DNA of 64,000 nt. Source: a bacterium (GTDB taxonomy: Bacteria; JAJVIF01). Location: the NCBI GenBank assembly GCA_022072165.1, contig JAJVIF010000004.1:64262-128261 (forward strand), in the 5' to 3' direction. Under the pieces are notes generated by a model. It was given only the letters and a program-made list of their open reading frames with translations. It did no database searches and was not told the origin of the DNA. The first letter of the stretch is position 1, and each line of letters opens with the position of its first letter. The translations under genes and the position numbers were made by a program. Positions 23,320 to 64,000 of the stretch are shown in pieces.

Positions 23320-23740
23320 GGTGTCGCAGCAAGCCACGCCGTTACCGCTGAGGGACTGCTCTGATGGACCGCGGCGCTTGCGCCGCTTCTTCAAAAATGC
23401 GATCCCCTAAGTGGCCCCCGGTCGCTGCGCCATTCCCCGATCAAGCCCCCGGTCGCTGCGCGACCACCCCCTAAGCGGCCCCCGATCGCTGCGCGACCAC
23501 CCCCGCAAGCGGGGGGGGGGAGGGAAGGTGTGCAAAAGCTCAGAGGGGCGACCGGGGGTCGCCCCTCCGAAAGTCGATGAATCATCTGGTGGGTCGACCT
23601 CCAGGTCGATGGGTGCTGGGACTTCAGTCCCCGACACACCAGCGCATGGACCCGTACGGACCAGACATCACGTCCCAGGTCTAAAGACCTGGTGTCCGGC
23701 GCAGCCGCCGGGGGCCTCCTGTCGTGACCGCACCTACGCC
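23320..23740. repeat. intergenic hairpin array, copy 1
   Basis: Non-coding stretch in the 690-base gap before leuD. It begins with an arm-like sequence (GTCGCAGCAAGCCACGCCG) and a GCGGCGC/GCGCCGC hairpin. Three imperfect ~32-base tandem units sharing GCCCCCG(G/A)TCGCTGCGC follow at 23411-23504, then a C5/G10 hairpin. After that come separate perfect hairpins: arms of 11 bp with a GGG loop (23543-23567), TCGACCT-CC-AGGTCGA (23594-23609), GGGACT-TC-AGTCCC (23618-23631) and CCAGGTC-TAAA-GACCTGG (23675-23692). The same parts recur in reverse orientation at 43.9-44.4 kb. No ORF with protein-like composition lies here. Confidence 0.8.
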
Positions 23741-48887: not shown

Positions 48888-50186
48888 TTAGTAGTTCCAG
48901 AAGTCGGAGTACTCGATGGCTCCAAGAGGGGTGATGAGGTGATTGTGATGCGGCAAGCCTACTCCTGGCATGGCGACGACACCCTCAAAGTCGACTGGCT
49001 GTGACGAGCCATCATGGATCAGCGTGCCATCGTAGGTCAGATCGTCATAGAATCCGTCGTCGTCTGTGTCTTTCAGCTCCACGATCATCTCAAAGACTGG
49101 AGCGTTCGACTCCCAGGTGTCTGGCTCGGGCTCTACGAACGGATGTCCGTCGGCATAACAACAACCGACGGGTGCGATGGTCCCGGTGTTGGTCCGAATT
49201 TTCGCGTGATAGATCAGCGATGACTTGTGCTCTTCGATCGTGGCTGTCCCAAAGGTGTTGAGATAGAAGGCGTCGGACCACAGGAAGAGATCCGGGGCGG
49301 TGGTCGACGGAATCGCGGCATTGCCAAGCATGGTGGACAATCTGCCGTATTCTCTGAGCCCAAAGGCGACAGTGGTTCCGGCCAAACCGTCTGCGACTCC
49401 CTGGCGATACACCTGCTCTGCCTGAGAGTGAGGGCCCCCTTCCGCATTGAATTCCTGGATCCAGCTTTTTAGAACCTGGCCGATCTGAATCCAGTTTCCG
49501 GTATGGGGCCGGGCGATCAGGAGATCGATGTAGGTCTCTTCAAGTTTCTGCTGCAGGGCCAGATCGTAGTCAGCATACGGAAACACGGACTTATCCAGCC
49601 GACCAGACTCCACGGCGATTCGCAGAAAGTCGCCATAAACCGTGATCAGTGGCAGGATTTGGACACCATAACGCTGTCGCTTCGTGGCTTCTCCAGCGAA
49701 GGACCAGTTGTCGAACTGGGGACCCGCCACCACTGGCTTCTTCCACTTGGCGGTGTGGTCCGCTGCATCGGTGGCGACGAGCTCCAGCATAAGGTTGCCC
49801 TCGCCTAACCGCTTGTCCGCCGTGAAATCGAGGCGAAAGGCGCCAGTCTGATGGTCGAAGTAAGAATTCGGTGCGGCCTGTAACAGGTGATCCAGGTTCA
49901 ACTCTACGGACTGCTGTGTCGAGATGTTCAGCACATGCAGCTTCAGGGCATTCGGGTCGCCAGGCGAGAGCCCCGCCTGAGACTGCACTGATCCCTCGAA
50001 GAGGGTGAAGCCGTGAGGGAGAAACTCCCAGGCGCCTGGAGTGGATGTCATGATGAGTTCGATAGGACCCGTTCCTGCCAGGCGGTCGGGCGTGGGGCTG
50101 GTCTGATTGGGTTTCCCAGCCTGACAGCCGAAGAGACTCAGGCCAGCCAGGCACAGGAGGAACCAGAGGGATGTCGTGGCCTTCAT
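48888..50186 (-). CDS. lipoprotein of unknown function
   Basis: 432 aa; signal peptide ends with lipobox LFGC (residue 21). Mature part: a beta-rich N-terminal domain (PIELIMTSTPGAWEFLPHGF, FRLDFTADKRLGEGNLMLELVA), a helical middle (LQQKLEETYIDLLIA), and a C-terminal part with GCCYADGHPF and an acidic turn KDTDDDGFYDDLTYDGTL that looks like a calcium-binding loop. Ends NHLITPLGAIEYSDFWNY. No family recognised. Base composition is less GC-rich than its neighbours. Its ATG overlaps the stop of the small lipoprotein gene upstream (TAATG), so translation is likely coupled. Confidence 0.78.
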   Translation of the reverse strand: MKATTSLWFLLCLAGLSLFGCQAGKPNQTSPTPDRLAGTGPIELIMTSTPGAWEFLPHGFTLFEGSVQSQAGLSPGDPNALKLHVLNISTQQSVELNLDHLLQAAPNSYFDHQTGAFRLDFTADKRLGEGNLMLELVATDAADHTAKWKKPVVAGPQFDNWSFAGEATKRQRYGVQILPLITVYGDFLRIAVESGRLDKSVFPYADYDLALQQKLEETYIDLLIARPHTGNWIQIGQVLKSWIQEFNAEGGPHSQAEQVYRQGVADGLAGTTVAFGLREYGRLSTMLGNAAIPSTTAPDLFLWSDAFYLNTFGTATIEEHKSSLIYHAKIRTNTGTIAPVGCCYADGHPFVEPEPDTWESNAPVFEMIVELKDTDDDGFYDDLTYDGTLIHDGSSQPVDFEGVVAMPGVGLPHHNHLITPLGAIEYSDFWNY

Positions 50187-50452
50187 TAACAGATACCTCC
50201 TCTCAGCGCGACCTGTCGAGCCGCTTCCCTACAGAGGTCGTTGACTGCTGTTGCTACGCCGGAGGGGACCTGACCACCACTATTGGTGCGAATCCAGTTC
50301 ATGGGATTTTGCAGGACGGTACCGATGCTGCCAACAACCCCGTTCGCTGCTCCCCCTGGCTGTGAACTGCATCCGGCCCACAGCAATGCGAGGACGAGTA
50401 CGCTCACTACAGGCCAGCTGTCACGGGGCCGCAGCTTGGTATGCTGTTCCAT
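50186..50452 (-). CDS. small lipoprotein, first gene of a coupled pair
   Basis: 88 aa from the ATG at 50452 with AGAGGG upstream. Signal peptide VVSVLVLALLWAGC gives a lipobox WAGC; the mature part is ~62 residues (GVVGSIGTVLQNPMNWI, VNDLCREAARQVAL) with two further Cys. No family recognised. A perfect (GT)10 tract lies 40 bases upstream of the start, next to a TAAGAT -10-like hexamer. Confidence 0.72.
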   Translation of the reverse strand: MEQHTKLRPRDSWPVVSVLVLALLWAGCSSQPGGAANGVVGSIGTVLQNPMNWIRTNSGGQVPSGVATAVNDLCREAARQVALRGGIC

Positions 50453-50486: not shown

Positions 50487-50511
50487 ATCTTACACACACA
50501 CACACACACAC
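50487..50511 (-). promoter_or_regulatory. (GT)10 dinucleotide tract abutting a -10-like hexamer
   Basis: Plus strand (AC)10 at 50492-50511, i.e. (GT)10 on the coding strand. It runs directly into TAAGAT (50487-50492; four of six consensus bases, T1 A2 A5 T6). No good -35 is seen at 17-19 bases. The hexamer is 34 bases before the ATG. Confidence 0.55.
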
Positions 50512-58381: not shown

Positions 58382-59395
58382 TTACAGGTCGAGGAGTCCT
58401 GCAGGGAGCTTGCGCCAGACACCAGGCTGGTCGGTCTTGTACTGCCAGACCAGCGAGTTTTGCGAATCCAGCAGGGACTCATGGACGATCATTGCAAACC
58501 GCTGGTTCCGAAACTTCTTTCCGGCCGAAGGTTCCCCTCTGGTCAATTGTGCCTGCCGCTTGGGCGCTTCGCCCTTCTCCGATGATGGAGGGGTGGCGTA
58601 CTCGATGATGTAGTTTTCTGAGGTGGCGAACATGACCCACCGGGTATTGTTCACCTCATAGTGAAAGCGCCATTGGCCGGCCTGCGAATGCCAGACTTCC
58701 ACCGGTCCGACTTCCTGCTCAATGATCTCCAGTGTCTGGGGGGGAATCCGGAGCCCGAGTTGTTTTTCCAGCCACTGCCCGCCAGGGACTTCGGACGCGG
58801 GGGCGAAAAGCAGTCCCCGGGCGATCCCGTGCAGCAGCTGGAGACCCAGTGGGTCGTGGATACTGAAGCGCAAAATGTGTGGCAGCTCCAGTTCATCCTT
58901 GGGGCGGGGACCCACATTGTGAAACCAGGTACCCTTCGTTTTGCCTTCAAACGGGGCCTCGACATACCAGAGTCCATTGGTGGACTTGTAGCAGCGCCAG
59001 CCGTGGGGTGGCATGACGTCCAGGCGGATGGGCATCAACTCCCCCTGGGCATCGAAGGGTACCAGCGGTAGCGGACTTTCCAGCTCGGGCTGACCGCCCC
59101 CGAGCCAGGCATGAATCACGTCATCCTGGTTACGGGTCGCCGTGCCGATGGCTATCGCAAACGCCTGCAACGAGTTGAAGAGACGTTGCTCCTCAGACTG
59201 ATTGAGCCGCTGGGCTATGAACGCCTCCTGCTCTCGTGCTGCTTGCTGGCTTGCGGAGGCGCAACCGCAGCCCAAGATGACACTCAGCATCAGCAGGAGC
59301 ACCCAACCGGAGCCCACGTGGACTGGCAAGTTGCCTGAGCCATACGGCTGCTTCTGCCTATTCACAGCAGCTGCACAGGAAGAGTCTGTGAGCAT
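58382..59395 (-). CDS. lipoprotein of unknown function, last gene of the Cys-rich operon
   Basis: 337 aa. The ATG at 59395 has GGAGG six bases upstream and lies inside the previous gene, overlapping it by 38 bases, so translation is coupled. A polar lead of ~30 residues precedes the hydrophobic stretch VLLLMLSVILGCGCAS with lipobox ILGC. Mature part soluble, with MPIRLDVMPPHGWRCYKSTN, HILRFSIHDPLGLQLLHGIA and a C-terminal AMIVHESLLDSQNSLVWQY. No family recognised. Confidence 0.75.
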   Translation of the reverse strand: MLTDSSCAAAVNRQKQPYGSGNLPVHVGSGWVLLLMLSVILGCGCASASQQAAREQEAFIAQRLNQSEEQRLFNSLQAFAIAIGTATRNQDDVIHAWLGGGQPELESPLPLVPFDAQGELMPIRLDVMPPHGWRCYKSTNGLWYVEAPFEGKTKGTWFHNVGPRPKDELELPHILRFSIHDPLGLQLLHGIARGLLFAPASEVPGGQWLEKQLGLRIPPQTLEIIEQEVGPVEVWHSQAGQWRFHYEVNNTRWVMFATSENYIIEYATPPSSEKGEAPKRQAQLTRGEPSAGKKFRNQRFAMIVHESLLDSQNSLVWQYKTDQPGVWRKLPAGLLDL

Positions 59396-59900
59396 CTTTA
59401 TCCTCCTCGGTGGGTTCAGGCCAGCAATGCAGGTGTTCCTGGCGGGGGCAGCAGGCGTCACAAATCTGATCGTCACCAGTCCAGATGGGCGGACTGGCCT
59501 CCTCTCTCCACGTAAAGCGTGCATCAACCCCTAGTTCCCCACACGGGATGGGTGGGAAGTTCCCAGGGTGCCCAGGATGCTCGTTCTCTATCTCCTCGTA
59601 AAGGCGCTTAAAGTCTTCACAGGTTTCCTGATTCACGCAGGCATACATAGCAGAGTAACCACCGTATTCCGCAGCGCCCCCAGAGATAGCGATGGGTTCT
59701 GAGCAGCTCGGAATCGGAAAGGTGTCACAACAGCAGATGAACTCCGAGAGTTCAAAGTCGAGCGTGGTGTAAAGCGAGATCGCGATCGGGACGCAGCACC
59801 CATCTGGCACGTTTTGCGCCTGGGAAGTCTTCGCGGGGGCTAGCTGTGTCGCGGCCAGCAGTAGCAGCAGCACTGAAAAGTGAAGGGACTTGTGTTTCAT
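59358..59900 (-). CDS. secreted cysteine-rich protein
   Basis: 180 aa. Signal peptide MKHKSLHFSVLLLLLAATQ with likely cleavage after KTSQA (no lipobox). The mature part has 16 Cys in ~152 residues, including DGCCVP, ICCCDTF, DACCPR and the C-terminal CSCCE, implying several disulfides or metal sites. No family recognised. Overlaps the gene upstream by four bases (ATGA) and the next by 38. Confidence 0.75.
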   Translation of the reverse strand: MKHKSLHFSVLLLLLAATQLAPAKTSQAQNVPDGCCVPIAISLYTTLDFELSEFICCCDTFPIPSCSEPIAISGGAAEYGGYSAMYACVNQETCEDFKRLYEEIENEHPGHPGNFPPIPCGELGVDARFTWREEASPPIWTGDDQICDACCPRQEHLHCWPEPTEEDKDAHRLFLCSCCE

Positions 59901-60913
59901 CGGTTTTCATTCCTTTCTGGTGCAGACTCCAGACGTGGGACCTCGACATAATCCCACTGATGGGCGGAGAGATCTTCCCAGAGGACCATCTCCTGCAATT
60001 GCTGGGCGATGTGGGCCGACAGGCCTGACTTTCCATAAGGAATGGCAGGACGGTAGTTCAGCAACTTCTTTTTGGGATGAATCTGGAGGTCGTGCCACAA
60101 GTCAGGTATACCTGGACCTGTGAGATGGAGTGCCACTGCGGTGTTATCTGGACGTTTGTACGCCATGATCGAGGGATAGAGAGCCAGCAGGGCTTCCCAG
60201 GGCTCCTGCTGCATTTTGAGATGGAGCGCGTCGAATGCCTGCGACGGCGATTCAGGCATTTGTTTGTAGTACCAATGGTAATGAGTGATGATGCTTGCCA
60301 GACTTCCGGCCCTTCGTGCGCAGAGGTCCTCAGCATCTGGTTCGTGCTCGAAGCCCGGCTTATACTCGCCGGCCAGCGGACGCATAGGCTCATAGCCCTC
60401 CCAGCCGCCGTGAAGGGCCACCCCGAAGTGATCCTCAACCGGGTAGACCGCGATGCTCAACAGGGGCACATCCCCATGTGTCTGAACTACCGGCCAGGGC
60501 TCTCCACTTTCAAGACAGGGCCAGTAAAGAACCTCAGACGCCAATTCGTTCCAGTTGTTTGGTGCAGTCAACCGGGCCGCTGATGGCACCGCAATTGGGC
60601 CAAAGTAGTAGTTCACCAGGGCCGAATTGACTTCCGCAAAAGTCAGACGTGCCTGGACTTTGGTGATCCCGAGTGGACCATAAGATCTGGCGACCTTCCA
60701 GAAGTCGAAGTAATCGACAGGTTTTTCCTGACGTTTGGTCGCAGTAGAATTCGCAGGCACTTGAGCCAAATCAGTTAGTTTTCCACTATCGCTGACCTGT
60801 ACCGATTTTTCGGCTGAGTTGACCCCGCTGCACCCCATCAGGTACTGGCAGGCCAAGGCAGTCATGAGAGCGACCGTGAGCACGTTCTGACGGGTATTTG
60901 TGCGCTGAGTCAT
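59897..60913 (-). CDS. lipoprotein of unknown function in the Cys-rich operon
   Basis: 338 aa from the ATG at 60913, five bases after the previous stop. Lipobox LMGC (~residue 28). Mature segment VDYFDFWKVARSYGPLGI, then a beta-rich domain with PVVQTHGDVPLLSIAVYPVE and HGGWEGYEP, and a basic C-terminus. No family recognised; parts of its C-terminus (EMVLWEDLSAHQWDYVEVP) recall the last gene of the operon, a weak resemblance. Confidence 0.75.
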   Translation of the reverse strand: MTQRTNTRQNVLTVALMTALACQYLMGCSGVNSAEKSVQVSDSGKLTDLAQVPANSTATKRQEKPVDYFDFWKVARSYGPLGITKVQARLTFAEVNSALVNYYFGPIAVPSAARLTAPNNWNELASEVLYWPCLESGEPWPVVQTHGDVPLLSIAVYPVEDHFGVALHGGWEGYEPMRPLAGEYKPGFEHEPDAEDLCARRAGSLASIITHYHWYYKQMPESPSQAFDALHLKMQQEPWEALLALYPSIMAYKRPDNTAVALHLTGPGIPDLWHDLQIHPKKKLLNYRPAIPYGKSGLSAHIAQQLQEMVLWEDLSAHQWDYVEVPRLESAPERNENR

Positions 60914-60918
60914 AGGTT

Positions 60919-61428
60919 TCAGCTCGCTTTCTTGTAAGGGCAAGGTGGCAAGTCTGTTTCACACCGCATTCGCGCTTCATGCGGGCAGAAGGGCTCATTG
61001 GGACTTTGTGGAATCGGACAGTCCACAAAAATCTGACCTGGGCATGGAGGTTGGCCTTTTTCTGCCGGCTCTATTAATGCAACAACGTTCCCATAACAGA
61101 GTTCCAGACACCAGCCTTGTCCATCCCTGATGCAGTCAGTGAAGCCTGGTGCAGCTTCAGCGCAATCACCGCAGCGGCACGCTGATCCAAAGGACTCGTT
61201 ACATTTCTTGGAGCTTTGGGAAGAGATACCAATCCAGTAGGTCAGCCCGTTGGCGGCACAGTCGCAGGAGTATACTTCTTGGTCATTGCACGGTTCATCG
61301 TCTTCAGTACAAGTCAGGCAGCAATGGCCATAGGCATGAGCCTGACTGACATAACCTGCTTCCGGAGTCGTCCACAAGCTGCCGCACAGGAGCGCCAGGA
61401 CGATCACCATGAGACGTCTGATCTGCAT
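60919..61428 (-). CDS. secreted cysteine-rich protein, first gene of the operon
   Basis: 169 aa from the ATG at 61428; the GGGGG site lies 7 bases upstream of it, whereas the in-frame ATG at 61434 would directly abut it. Signal peptide RLMVIVLALLCGSLWTTPEA. The mature part has 18 Cys in ~145 residues with GHCCLTC, SCDC, CRCGDC and CPHEARMRC, again pointing to a disulfide-rich or metal-binding secreted protein. No family recognised. It is behind a TTGACA promoter with an (AG)10 spacer. Confidence 0.75.
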   Translation of the reverse strand: MQIRRLMVIVLALLCGSLWTTPEAGYVSQAHAYGHCCLTCTEDDEPCNDQEVYSCDCAANGLTYWIGISSQSSKKCNESFGSACRCGDCAEAAPGFTDCIRDGQGWCLELCYGNVVALIEPAEKGQPPCPGQIFVDCPIPQSPNEPFCPHEARMRCETDLPPCPYKKAS

Positions 61429-61470
61429 CGTCATCCCCCAAGAATGCTGGGGACTGCATACTAATGCACA

Positions 61471-61501
61471 AGGTTACTCTCTCTCTCTCTCTCTCTGTCA
61501 A
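61471..61501 (-). promoter_or_regulatory. promoter with (AG)10 spacer, predicted phase-variable
   Basis: Minus strand: perfect -35 TTGACA (61496-61501), 19-base spacer made of AG repeats (plus-strand (CT)10 at 61477-61496), -10 TAACCT (61471-61476; T1, A2 and T6, the most conserved positions, match). The optimal spacer is 17; losing one AG unit would give exactly that. The -10 is 42 bases from the ATG at 61428. Confidence 0.7.
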
Positions 61502-61541: not shown

Positions 61542-64000
61542 TTACTCCAGCGAGACGGCGGGGGTGAAGAGGTCGCCGGTCACGGCCAGCCAGGCATTGG
61601 CGGGCTGGAAGTACGTCGTCGCGACCCGGTTCGCCTCCTCCACCGTGACCCCGGCCATCCGCTGGAGGAGCTGCCAGTCGAAGTCCCAGGGGAGATCCCG
61701 GGCGACATTGAGCGCCATCGCCTGTGATTGCGCCTGCATCCCAGCCAGCGACATCAGGGTTTGCCCCCTGCTGTAGGTGACAGCGGTTGCGAGCTCTTCG
61801 GCTGTGATGCCCTCGGTGGCGATGAGCCGAAACTCCCGCTGCAGGCCGGTGATGGCCTGCTCCCACATTTCAGGCCGTGTCCCAATCCGGGCCGACAGGA
61901 TGCCGCCATCACGATACGCCTCCACCCGGGAATAGGTGCCATAGGCCAGCCCTTCCTTGCCCCGCAGCCGGTCAAACAGCCGGGAGAGCCAGCTGCCTCC
62001 CAGCACCATGTTGACCGCCTGGATCGCCGGGAGGTCCGGGTCATGCAGGGCGACGCCGGGGAGTCCCAGCACACTCATCGTTTGGGCCTTGGCGGTCTGC
62101 TGGACAATCCGCTGCAGGCCCGTGGCGCTCCGGGGGATAGCGGGAGAGAGCACGGTGCCGGTCTGACGTTTCCGCACCGGTAACCCTCCAAAAATGGTTT
62201 CCAGCTCAGGCTGCACAGTGGCGGGATCGATGTCACCTGTCAGGGTCAGGACTAACGTAGAGGGATCAAAGATGTGCACCGCGTGATCCAGCAGATGCTC
62301 CCGGGTCAGAGCACTGACCGCCGCAGGGCGTCCCAACGGCGGACGGCCGTACGCCACGTCCTGGCCCCACATCGCCAGCGTCAGCTGATCATGTGTGGTG
62401 TTGTACGACTCATCGGCCCGGGCGGTGATCTCCGCGAGAAGGATGTCGCGGGCGACTGCCACTTCCTCTTCGGGGAAGGTGGCCTGACTGATGAGATCGG
62501 CGATCAACGGCAATGCTGTGGCGAGGTCATCGGCGGCATAGAGTCCGCTCAGCGAGGTGGTGTCGTAGCTGACACTCACTTCGAAGCGTCCGCCGAGGTG
62601 GTCGATGAGTCCCAGGATGTCATCGGCAGAACGGGTGGTCGTCCCCTTGGTCAGGGTCCGCTCCAGCAGCGCGCCGAGTCCGTTGGTCTCCCAGGACTCC
62701 AGATCGAGTCCCTGCGGCGCGGCGAGAGTGAGCCCCACCGTCCCGGTCCCAAGGACCGGCTTCACCAGCACCCGCATCCCGTTCCGGAGCGTCAGCGTGG
62801 TGGGTGCCGCCCCCGCTCCGGCGGCCTGACTGGCGGGATAGATCGGCTGTGTGGATGTCCCCAGCCGGCCGATGTCGCCAGGTCGCTCCAGGGGAGCGGC
62901 TGAGGGGTCCAGCAATGACCAGTTCGGGGTCAGGGGAGCCGCACCAGTCTCGGCGGTGGCGAGGCCGAGGGTGATGTGCGCGGCGGGGAGGAAATGCTGC
63001 GCCGCCCACTGGACATCCGCAGCGTTGACCCCCGCCAGGCGAGCGGCATAGTCTTCGAAGAAGAGGGGAGACCCGGTGGCGTTGATGTAATAGCCGAGGG
63101 TGTAGGCCTGACTCTGGACATCCTCCCCCAGGAACAAATGCTGGAGCATCAGCTGTCGGCGCGCGCGGTCAAGCTCGCTCGCGGTGGGGCCCTGCTCCTT
63201 GAGCTGCCGAATGACCCTGAAGATTTCCTCGGTAGCAGCGAGGGTCTGCGCGGGGTCCGCCATCTCCGCGCTGAGCCAAAAGGCGGACTGCGTGATCAGT
63301 TCTTGTGTGCTGGTAGAGATGTCGGAGACGAGCCCGAGCTCGTCGCGCAGACGTCGCACCAGCCGACTTGCATCCCCCTGTCCGAGAATCGCGGCCAGCA
63401 CCTGCAGAGCATAGGTTTCATCGGCACGGGCGGCGGTTGTGGGCCAGACAGCAGCGATGTGATTGGTGGCGTAGTCCCGGACTCCCACCAGCGACTGCGG
63501 CGCAGTCTGGGAGTAGGGAGTCGTGCCGGGGTCCGGGGCGATTTCAGTCGGCTGCCAGGCACTGAACTCTTCGGTGAGGATCTGCAGCGCATCCTCCGCG
63601 TTAAAGTCACCGACGGCAATGGTGAATGCGTTGTTGGGACCATAAAAGCGACGGTAGTACTCCCGCATCTGCTCATTGGTCTGGGCATCGAGGGTCGGGG
63701 CATCGCCGATGACCGGATGCCGATAGCCAGCGTGGGCCATGGCTGCCGGGAGCACCAGATCGCCCAGGAACCAGCCGGGGTTGTCGAGTCCCTGCCGGAG
63801 CTCTTCCTTCACGACTTCGCGCTCCCGTCCGAACTCGCTGTCCAGGAGCACGGGCTGGCTCACGAGGAGGGCGGTCATATGCGCGATTTCCCGGAGCTTG
63901 TCGGCGGGTCCGACATGGAAGTAGTTGGTGTTGTCCTGATCCGTGGAGGCGTTGTTGTCGATGGCGTTCTGAAACAGGATGCGGTTGAAGTCATCCAGGG
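61542..64000 (-). CDS. M16-family (insulinase-like) zinc peptidase, 5' end beyond the window
   Basis: At least 818 residues are visible; the frame stays open from 63878 to the window edge (QNAIDNNASTDQDNTNYF matches the conserved M16 segment after the active site), so the HxxEH zinc motif is outside. Two tandem M16 units: the first with FGREREVVKEELRQGLDNP and HPVIGD; the second from ~residue 370 of the visible part (LRNGMRVLVKP), where the HxxEH position reads ALLERTL and is inactive, as in typical pairs. Ends ANAWLAVTGDLFTPAVSLE. Whether it has a signal peptide cannot be seen. Confidence 0.9.
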   Translation of the reverse strand, partial: LDDFNRILFQNAIDNNASTDQDNTNYFHVGPADKLREIAHMTALLVSQPVLLDSEFGREREVVKEELRQGLDNPGWFLGDLVLPAAMAHAGYRHPVIGDAPTLDAQTNEQMREYYRRFYGPNNAFTIAVGDFNAEDALQILTEEFSAWQPTEIAPDPGTTPYSQTAPQSLVGVRDYATNHIAAVWPTTAARADETYALQVLAAILGQGDASRLVRRLRDELGLVSDISTSTQELITQSAFWLSAEMADPAQTLAATEEIFRVIRQLKEQGPTASELDRARRQLMLQHLFLGEDVQSQAYTLGYYINATGSPLFFEDYAARLAGVNAADVQWAAQHFLPAAHITLGLATAETGAAPLTPNWSLLDPSAAPLERPGDIGRLGTSTQPIYPASQAAGAGAAPTTLTLRNGMRVLVKPVLGTGTVGLTLAAPQGLDLESWETNGLGALLERTLTKGTTTRSADDILGLIDHLGGRFEVSVSYDTTSLSGLYAADDLATALPLIADLISQATFPEEEVAVARDILLAEITARADESYNTTHDQLTLAMWGQDVAYGRPPLGRPAAVSALTREHLLDHAVHIFDPSTLVLTLTGDIDPATVQPELETIFGGLPVRKRQTGTVLSPAIPRSATGLQRIVQQTAKAQTMSVLGLPGVALHDPDLPAIQAVNMVLGGSWLSRLFDRLRGKEGLAYGTYSRVEAYRDGGILSARIGTRPEMWEQAITGLQREFRLIATEGITAEELATAVTYSRGQTLMSLAGMQAQSQAMALNVARDLPWDFDWQLLQRMAGVTVEEANRVATTYFQPANAWLAVTGDLFTPAVSLE

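Follow-up and report, generated by a model that had tools for sequence, protein, structure and literature searches.

A pure run of ten AG dinucleotides lies upstream of an operon for secreted proteins in a bacterial genome, bracketed by hexamers that resemble the -35 and -10 elements of a promoter. Does this run serve as a promoter spacer, and could changes in its length switch the operon on and off? Promoters with a repeat in the spacer are known from isolated cases, mostly in host-adapted pathogens. In Neisseria meningitidis, the porA promoter carries a poly-G tract between -35 and -10 (PMC3899988, PMC3639595). The hifA/hifB promoter of Haemophilus influenzae contains (TA)9-11, in which each unit is proposed to alter the distance between -35 and -10 by 2 bp (van Ham 1993 and Geluk 1998, as cited in PMC2651432 and PMC3899988). 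Here, we analyze the locus in a 64,000-nucleotide stretch of contig JAJVIF010000004.1, termed the window, and follow the arrangement through the genome of the organism.

Results

On the minus strand of the window, a -35 hexamer TTGACA (61501-61496) runs directly into an (AG)10 tract (61496-61477), the first A of which is the last base of the hexamer. A -10-like TAACCT, which fits TAnnnT, follows at 61476-61471, and the 19-nt spacer (61495-61477) consists of (AG)10 less the A counted in TTGACA. The arrangement given in the preliminary description is thereby read directly and exactly from the sequence, and places a repeat tract between the two promoter elements, as at the hif and porA loci. The tract sits in the 107 nt that separate an M16 peptidase gene (Pfam match, stop at 61542) from a four-gene operon; transcription would start near 61464, leaving a predicted 5' leader at 61464-61435 (minus strand). 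No other AG tract of at least 14 nt occurs in the window, and dinucleotide shuffles yield 0.01 expected tracts of (AG)7 or longer per window. Taken alone, the TTGACA/TAACCT site is weak evidence for a promoter because TTGACA is common (14 found in the window vs. 17.6 expected) and TAACCT matches TATAAT at three of six positions. A computed fold additionally places a hairpin CCCCCA...TGGGGG, CCCCCAGCATTCTTGGGGG (window 61425-61455), over the region where ribosomes would bind to the operon's first gene and where it could limit translation.

The operon, encoded on the minus strand, comprises two pairs of genes. Gene A (60919-61434, ATG at 61434) encodes a 171-aa Cys-rich secreted protein with 19 Cys, gene B (59897-60913) a lipoprotein with the lipobox LMGC, assigned by eye, gene A2 (59358-59900) a 180-aa Cys-rich secreted protein with 16 Cys, and gene B2 (58382-59527, start uncertain) a second lipoprotein. 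The earlier claim that these proteins lack a recognised family holds: neither Pfam nor NCBIfam returned a significant family for the A and B proteins, A2 and B2 have no Pfam match, and a PDB sequence search yielded no match. An Imm72 match in the family scans (E = 0.025) was rejected as not significant. Single-sequence structure models were uninformative (mean pLDDT 37 and 33). A search of 58 other genomes returned no match to gene A, and contig scans with gene A and with a neighbouring 2-oxoacid oxidoreductase found no relative.

Pattern searches and targeted stretches of the 3.26-Mb genome (four contigs, of which C1 to C3 are named below) revealed 11 pure AG/AC tracts of at least 12 nt; AT tracts of at least 14 nt are absent from the genome. 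TTGAC directly precedes nine of the 11 (chance ~6e-23 at the measured TTGAC frequency). These nine are (AG)11 at C1:1545071 (locus 1, spacer 19-22 nt), (CT)10 at C2:315474 (locus 2, 17 nt), (TC)10T at C2:427644 (locus 3, 21 nt), (AG)8 at C2:551968 (locus 4, 16 nt), (AG)9 at C3:163531 (locus 5, 15-18 nt), the tract at window 61496-61477 (locus 6, 19 nt), (GT)13 at C1:1587188 (locus 7, 25 nt), (GT)9 at C1:1590683 (locus 8, 17 nt), and (AG)7 at C2:53936 (locus 9, 17 nt with GAGAAT), where a one-unit assembly error is possible at any single locus. A tenth, (GT)10, lies in the window itself (locus 13, 50492-50511, minus strand), with CAGTCG in place of TTGAC at the -35 position and a spacer of 18 nt. 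The remaining tract, (CA)6 at C2:574788, departs from the pattern.

Seven of the ten tracts other than (CA)6 have a TAnnnT box at or overlapping their end (TATAAT, TACAAT, TATTGT, TAACCT, TACTTT, TAGCGT and TAAGAT; P ~1e-14, or 2e-10 at a fourfold higher base rate). The -10 element is strong at loci 2 (TATAAT) and 3 (TACAAT), weak at locus 6, and ambiguous at loci 1, 5 and 9 (GAGAAT, GAATAT or AATATC). The recurrence of the arrangement throughout the genome is what makes the promoter reading convincing: both the promoter and the genome-wide pattern are statistically shown. Units (AG, CT, GT) and tract lengths (14-26 nt) differ between loci; the shared property is therefore length, not sequence. 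That AG, CT and GT replace one another at equivalent positions, with purines or pyrimidines on either strand, also bears on the notion that the tract acts not through spacing but by binding a protein or by adopting an unusual DNA structure (GA/CT being triplex-prone and GT Z-prone). GA/CT and GT runs can form non-B DNA, but their interchangeability favours spacing over one structure or one protein, and we consider such a role very unlikely.

Each of the ten tracts is followed, 12-71 nt downstream, by the gene for a small secreted protein (A) and then by a lipoprotein gene (B), the same kind of cassette as at locus 6. The A proteins measure 150-195 aa with 11-19 Cys, except for that of locus 13, and the B lipoproteins about 310-435 aa; a second pair, A2-B2, follows at loci 3, 6, 7 and 8. 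At all ten loci, both the A and the B protein show an N-terminal secretion signal or lipobox, judged by eye, in keeping with the secreted or surface products of hif/porA-type loci. One B family unites loci 4, 5, 9 and 13 (E = 1e-45 to 1e-116), and further B families are 1B/1B0/2B, 7B/8B and 6B2/7B2/8B2. Within the last of these, B2 of locus 6 matches B2 of loci 7 and 8 with E = 1e-9 to 5e-12, and A2 of locus 6 is related to the A2 proteins of loci 3, 7 and 8. A single family for all cassettes was ruled out by profile comparison, which separates several A/B families with no detectable relation.

At locus 13, a -10-like TAAGAT (50487-50492, minus strand) overlaps the end of (GT)10. Behind the tract, on the same strand, are genes for a short lipoprotein of 88 aa with 3 Cys (50186-50452) and a 432-aa lipoprotein (48888-50186) homologous to B of loci 4, 5 and 9 (E = 1e-45 to 1e-69). 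Locus 13 is probably a decayed copy, because its -35 element is missing and its A protein is short and without the Cys-rich centre. Elsewhere in the window, imperfect 31-33-bp tandem repeats (GCCCCCGATCGCTGCGC...) are found at 23402-23512.

An alternative is a translational switch, in which the tract would be part of the coding region and slippage would shift the reading frame. At loci 2, 7, 8 and 13, the tract can be read through in the frame of gene A, and the GT tracts contain GTG codons. At loci 1, 3, 4, 5, 6 and 9, however, an in-frame stop separates tract and start at any tract length, which excludes a coding-frame switch at six of the ten loci, the one in the window included. Good ribosome-binding sites precede starts located 39-71 nt past the tract at loci 1, 2, 4, 9 and 13, and a translational switch would leave TTGAC and TAnnnT unexplained. 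We rate it the least probable of the alternatives. At loci 3, 7 and 8, a stretch of 12-14 nt separates the tract from an ATG, as would fit leaderless transcription from a -10 element abutting the tract.

Further cassettes came to light in the genome through profile searches, which also gave distant B-like matches in G003 and G002, two other genomes of the same phylum. As a control, we read the promoters of eleven siblings lacking a pure dinucleotide tract, ten from this genome and one from G003, chosen for a visible TTGAC; a further cassette (C3:172k) shows none. Eight siblings from this genome share a spacer of 17 nt: TTGACA-17-GATAAT (C1:1389k), TTGACA-17-TATTTT (C1:116k), TTGACA-17-TATAGT (C1:1803k), TTGACT-17-TAGTAT (C1:651k), TTGACA-17-TAGGTT (C2:38k), TTGACG-17-TAAGCT (C3:72k), TTGACG-17-CATATT (1A0) and TTGACA-17-GAGAAT (C2:339k). 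That of G003 reads TTGACA-17-TATATC and that of C1:650k TTGACA-16-TAAAAT. At C3:105k (L111:4570-4590, minus strand), TTGACC is followed by A8 in the spacer and the promoter reading is unclear; this locus, whose A gene seems split between two frames, is possibly a mononucleotide version or a decayed copy. When matches to TATAAT were summed over all eleven siblings without choosing -10 boxes, they peaked at spacer 17 with 40/66 (next best 27; 0/20,000 shuffles). The standard spacer of this promoter class is 17 nt, and the dinucleotide tract therefore replaces a spacer of that standard length. A second A2-B2 pair at C3:72k (L117, about 2105-2963 in reverse-strand coordinates, minus strand) looks broken, with a short A2 and a TAA stop in the B2 match, which suggests turnover of cassettes.

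Compared with the sibling value of 17, spacers at the tract loci spread over about 15-25 nt and, in comparison between loci, straddle the working length in unit steps, as in hif/porA-type promoters. Locus 6, with 19 nt, is one dinucleotide unit from the standard. The earlier assignment of 17 as the working length and of 19 and 21 as off-standard thus agrees with the siblings. The promoters could also be real with a spacer that is repetitive by happenstance, its length effectively fixed and no switching taking place. In favour of this view, no variation within any one locus was seen, and among the four genomes of the phylum compared, this one included, the three others contain no such tracts and thus reveal no past variation. 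Against fixed lengths stand ten pure tracts of 14-26 nt in three units placed precisely in the spacer of one gene class, siblings that manage with non-repeat 17-nt spacers, the wide range of spacers between loci as for an unstable tract, and long pure dinucleotide runs that are unexpected by chance in ~64% GC sequence. We regard a fixed spacer as unlikely.

Five siblings with 16- or 17-nt spacers carry a different repeat. Perfect tandem arrays of 8-10-nt units, beginning within about 10 nt of the -10 element, extend over the expected transcription start: (TCTCCCTA)4.9 at C1:116k (L110:2475-2513), (CGGGTAACAG)3.8 at C2:38k (L112:4356-4393), (CGAGTAACAG)6.4 at C3:72k (L117:5422-5485), (CTGCATCCTC)4.4 at C1:1389k (L089:2695-2738) and (AGTTCCTGC)2.6 at C1:650k (L113:2734-2756). 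The 10-nt units CGGGTAACAG and CGAGTAACAG, from two loci, are nearly identical. Changes in copy number would alter the leader length or the start region. The preliminary description had missed these arrays, the (GT)10 tract in the window, and the roughly ten promoters of this kind in the genome.

Discussion

We put at about 80% the probability that a sigma-70-type promoter drives the A-B-A2-B2 operon with the (AG)10 tract as its spacer, and that it is one of about ten slippage-tuned copies. Replication slippage that adds or removes one dinucleotide would shift the -35/-10 distance by 2 bp. At a spacer of ~17 bp, RNA polymerase would contact both boxes and the cassette would be transcribed, while at 19, 21 or 25 bp transcription would be weak or off. 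The operon in the window, at its assembled 19, is predicted to be weak or off and to reach the standard length after loss of one unit. With ten independent tracts, each cell would express a random selection of the secreted protein/lipoprotein cassettes, which might benefit cells facing predators, phage, hosts or competitors by varying their exposed proteins. We infer slippage, reversible switching, an ON or OFF state for each length and the surface role of the proteins from sequence comparison.

Related systems differ in where and what they repeat. The tracts in the promoters of Mycoplasma hyorhinis and Bordetella pertussis surface proteins are homopolymers at different positions, and the T-tract of Helicobacter pylori sabA is located upstream of the core promoter. 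The present loci share with sabA a promoter repeat that tunes transcription of a surface adhesin in H. pylori (PMC4081817) and is proposed to tune transcription here. With the phase-variable M. hyorhinis and B. pertussis promoters, as cited in PMC3899988, they share promoter repeats, and M. hyorhinis uses them for a surface lipoprotein family; unlike here, neither of these systems is known to involve Cys-rich protein/lipoprotein cassettes. As in porA, the tract lies inside the spacer, and porA expression depends on spacer length and yields a surface protein, but the porA tract is mononucleotide and changes in 1-bp steps. The hif promoter likewise has a dinucleotide in the spacer, a 2-bp unit and a similar copy number, and serves surface-structure genes. 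It differs in its TA unit (AG, CT or GT here) and its shared divergent promoter; here there is one direction and about ten loci in one genome. The window does not hold a hif fimbrial locus proper: the unit is AG, the promoter faces one direction, its four genes have no Pfam match, and Pfam detects no fimbrial or chaperone homologs in the operon. By analogy, these promoters would work like the hif/porA type and appear unusual in scale, unit diversity and lineage; within partial literature coverage, no other genome turned up that uses dinucleotide-spacer promoters on such a scale for a single type of cassette.

The sequence evidence suggests that slippage-driven on/off switches for small, mostly Cys-rich secreted proteins are spread through the genome as a set. 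About ten promoters of one architecture with interchangeable units, in a barely sampled phylum, come with non-repeat siblings as built-in controls that allow spacer length to be compared directly with output. Broader still, and in our view an even bet, is a combinatorial system of about 20 cassettes, most of them with a tandem-repeat tuner, at ten loci the dinucleotide spacer of the promoter and at five an 8-10-nt start-site array, so that each cell has a random repertoire. If true, this would represent a phasome with two modes, from a phylum of which little is known, in which promoter-spacer switching dominates over reading-frame switching. The set would also help in finding out what the undescribed pair of Cys-rich protein and lipoprotein does, a pair that apparently benefits from random diversification.
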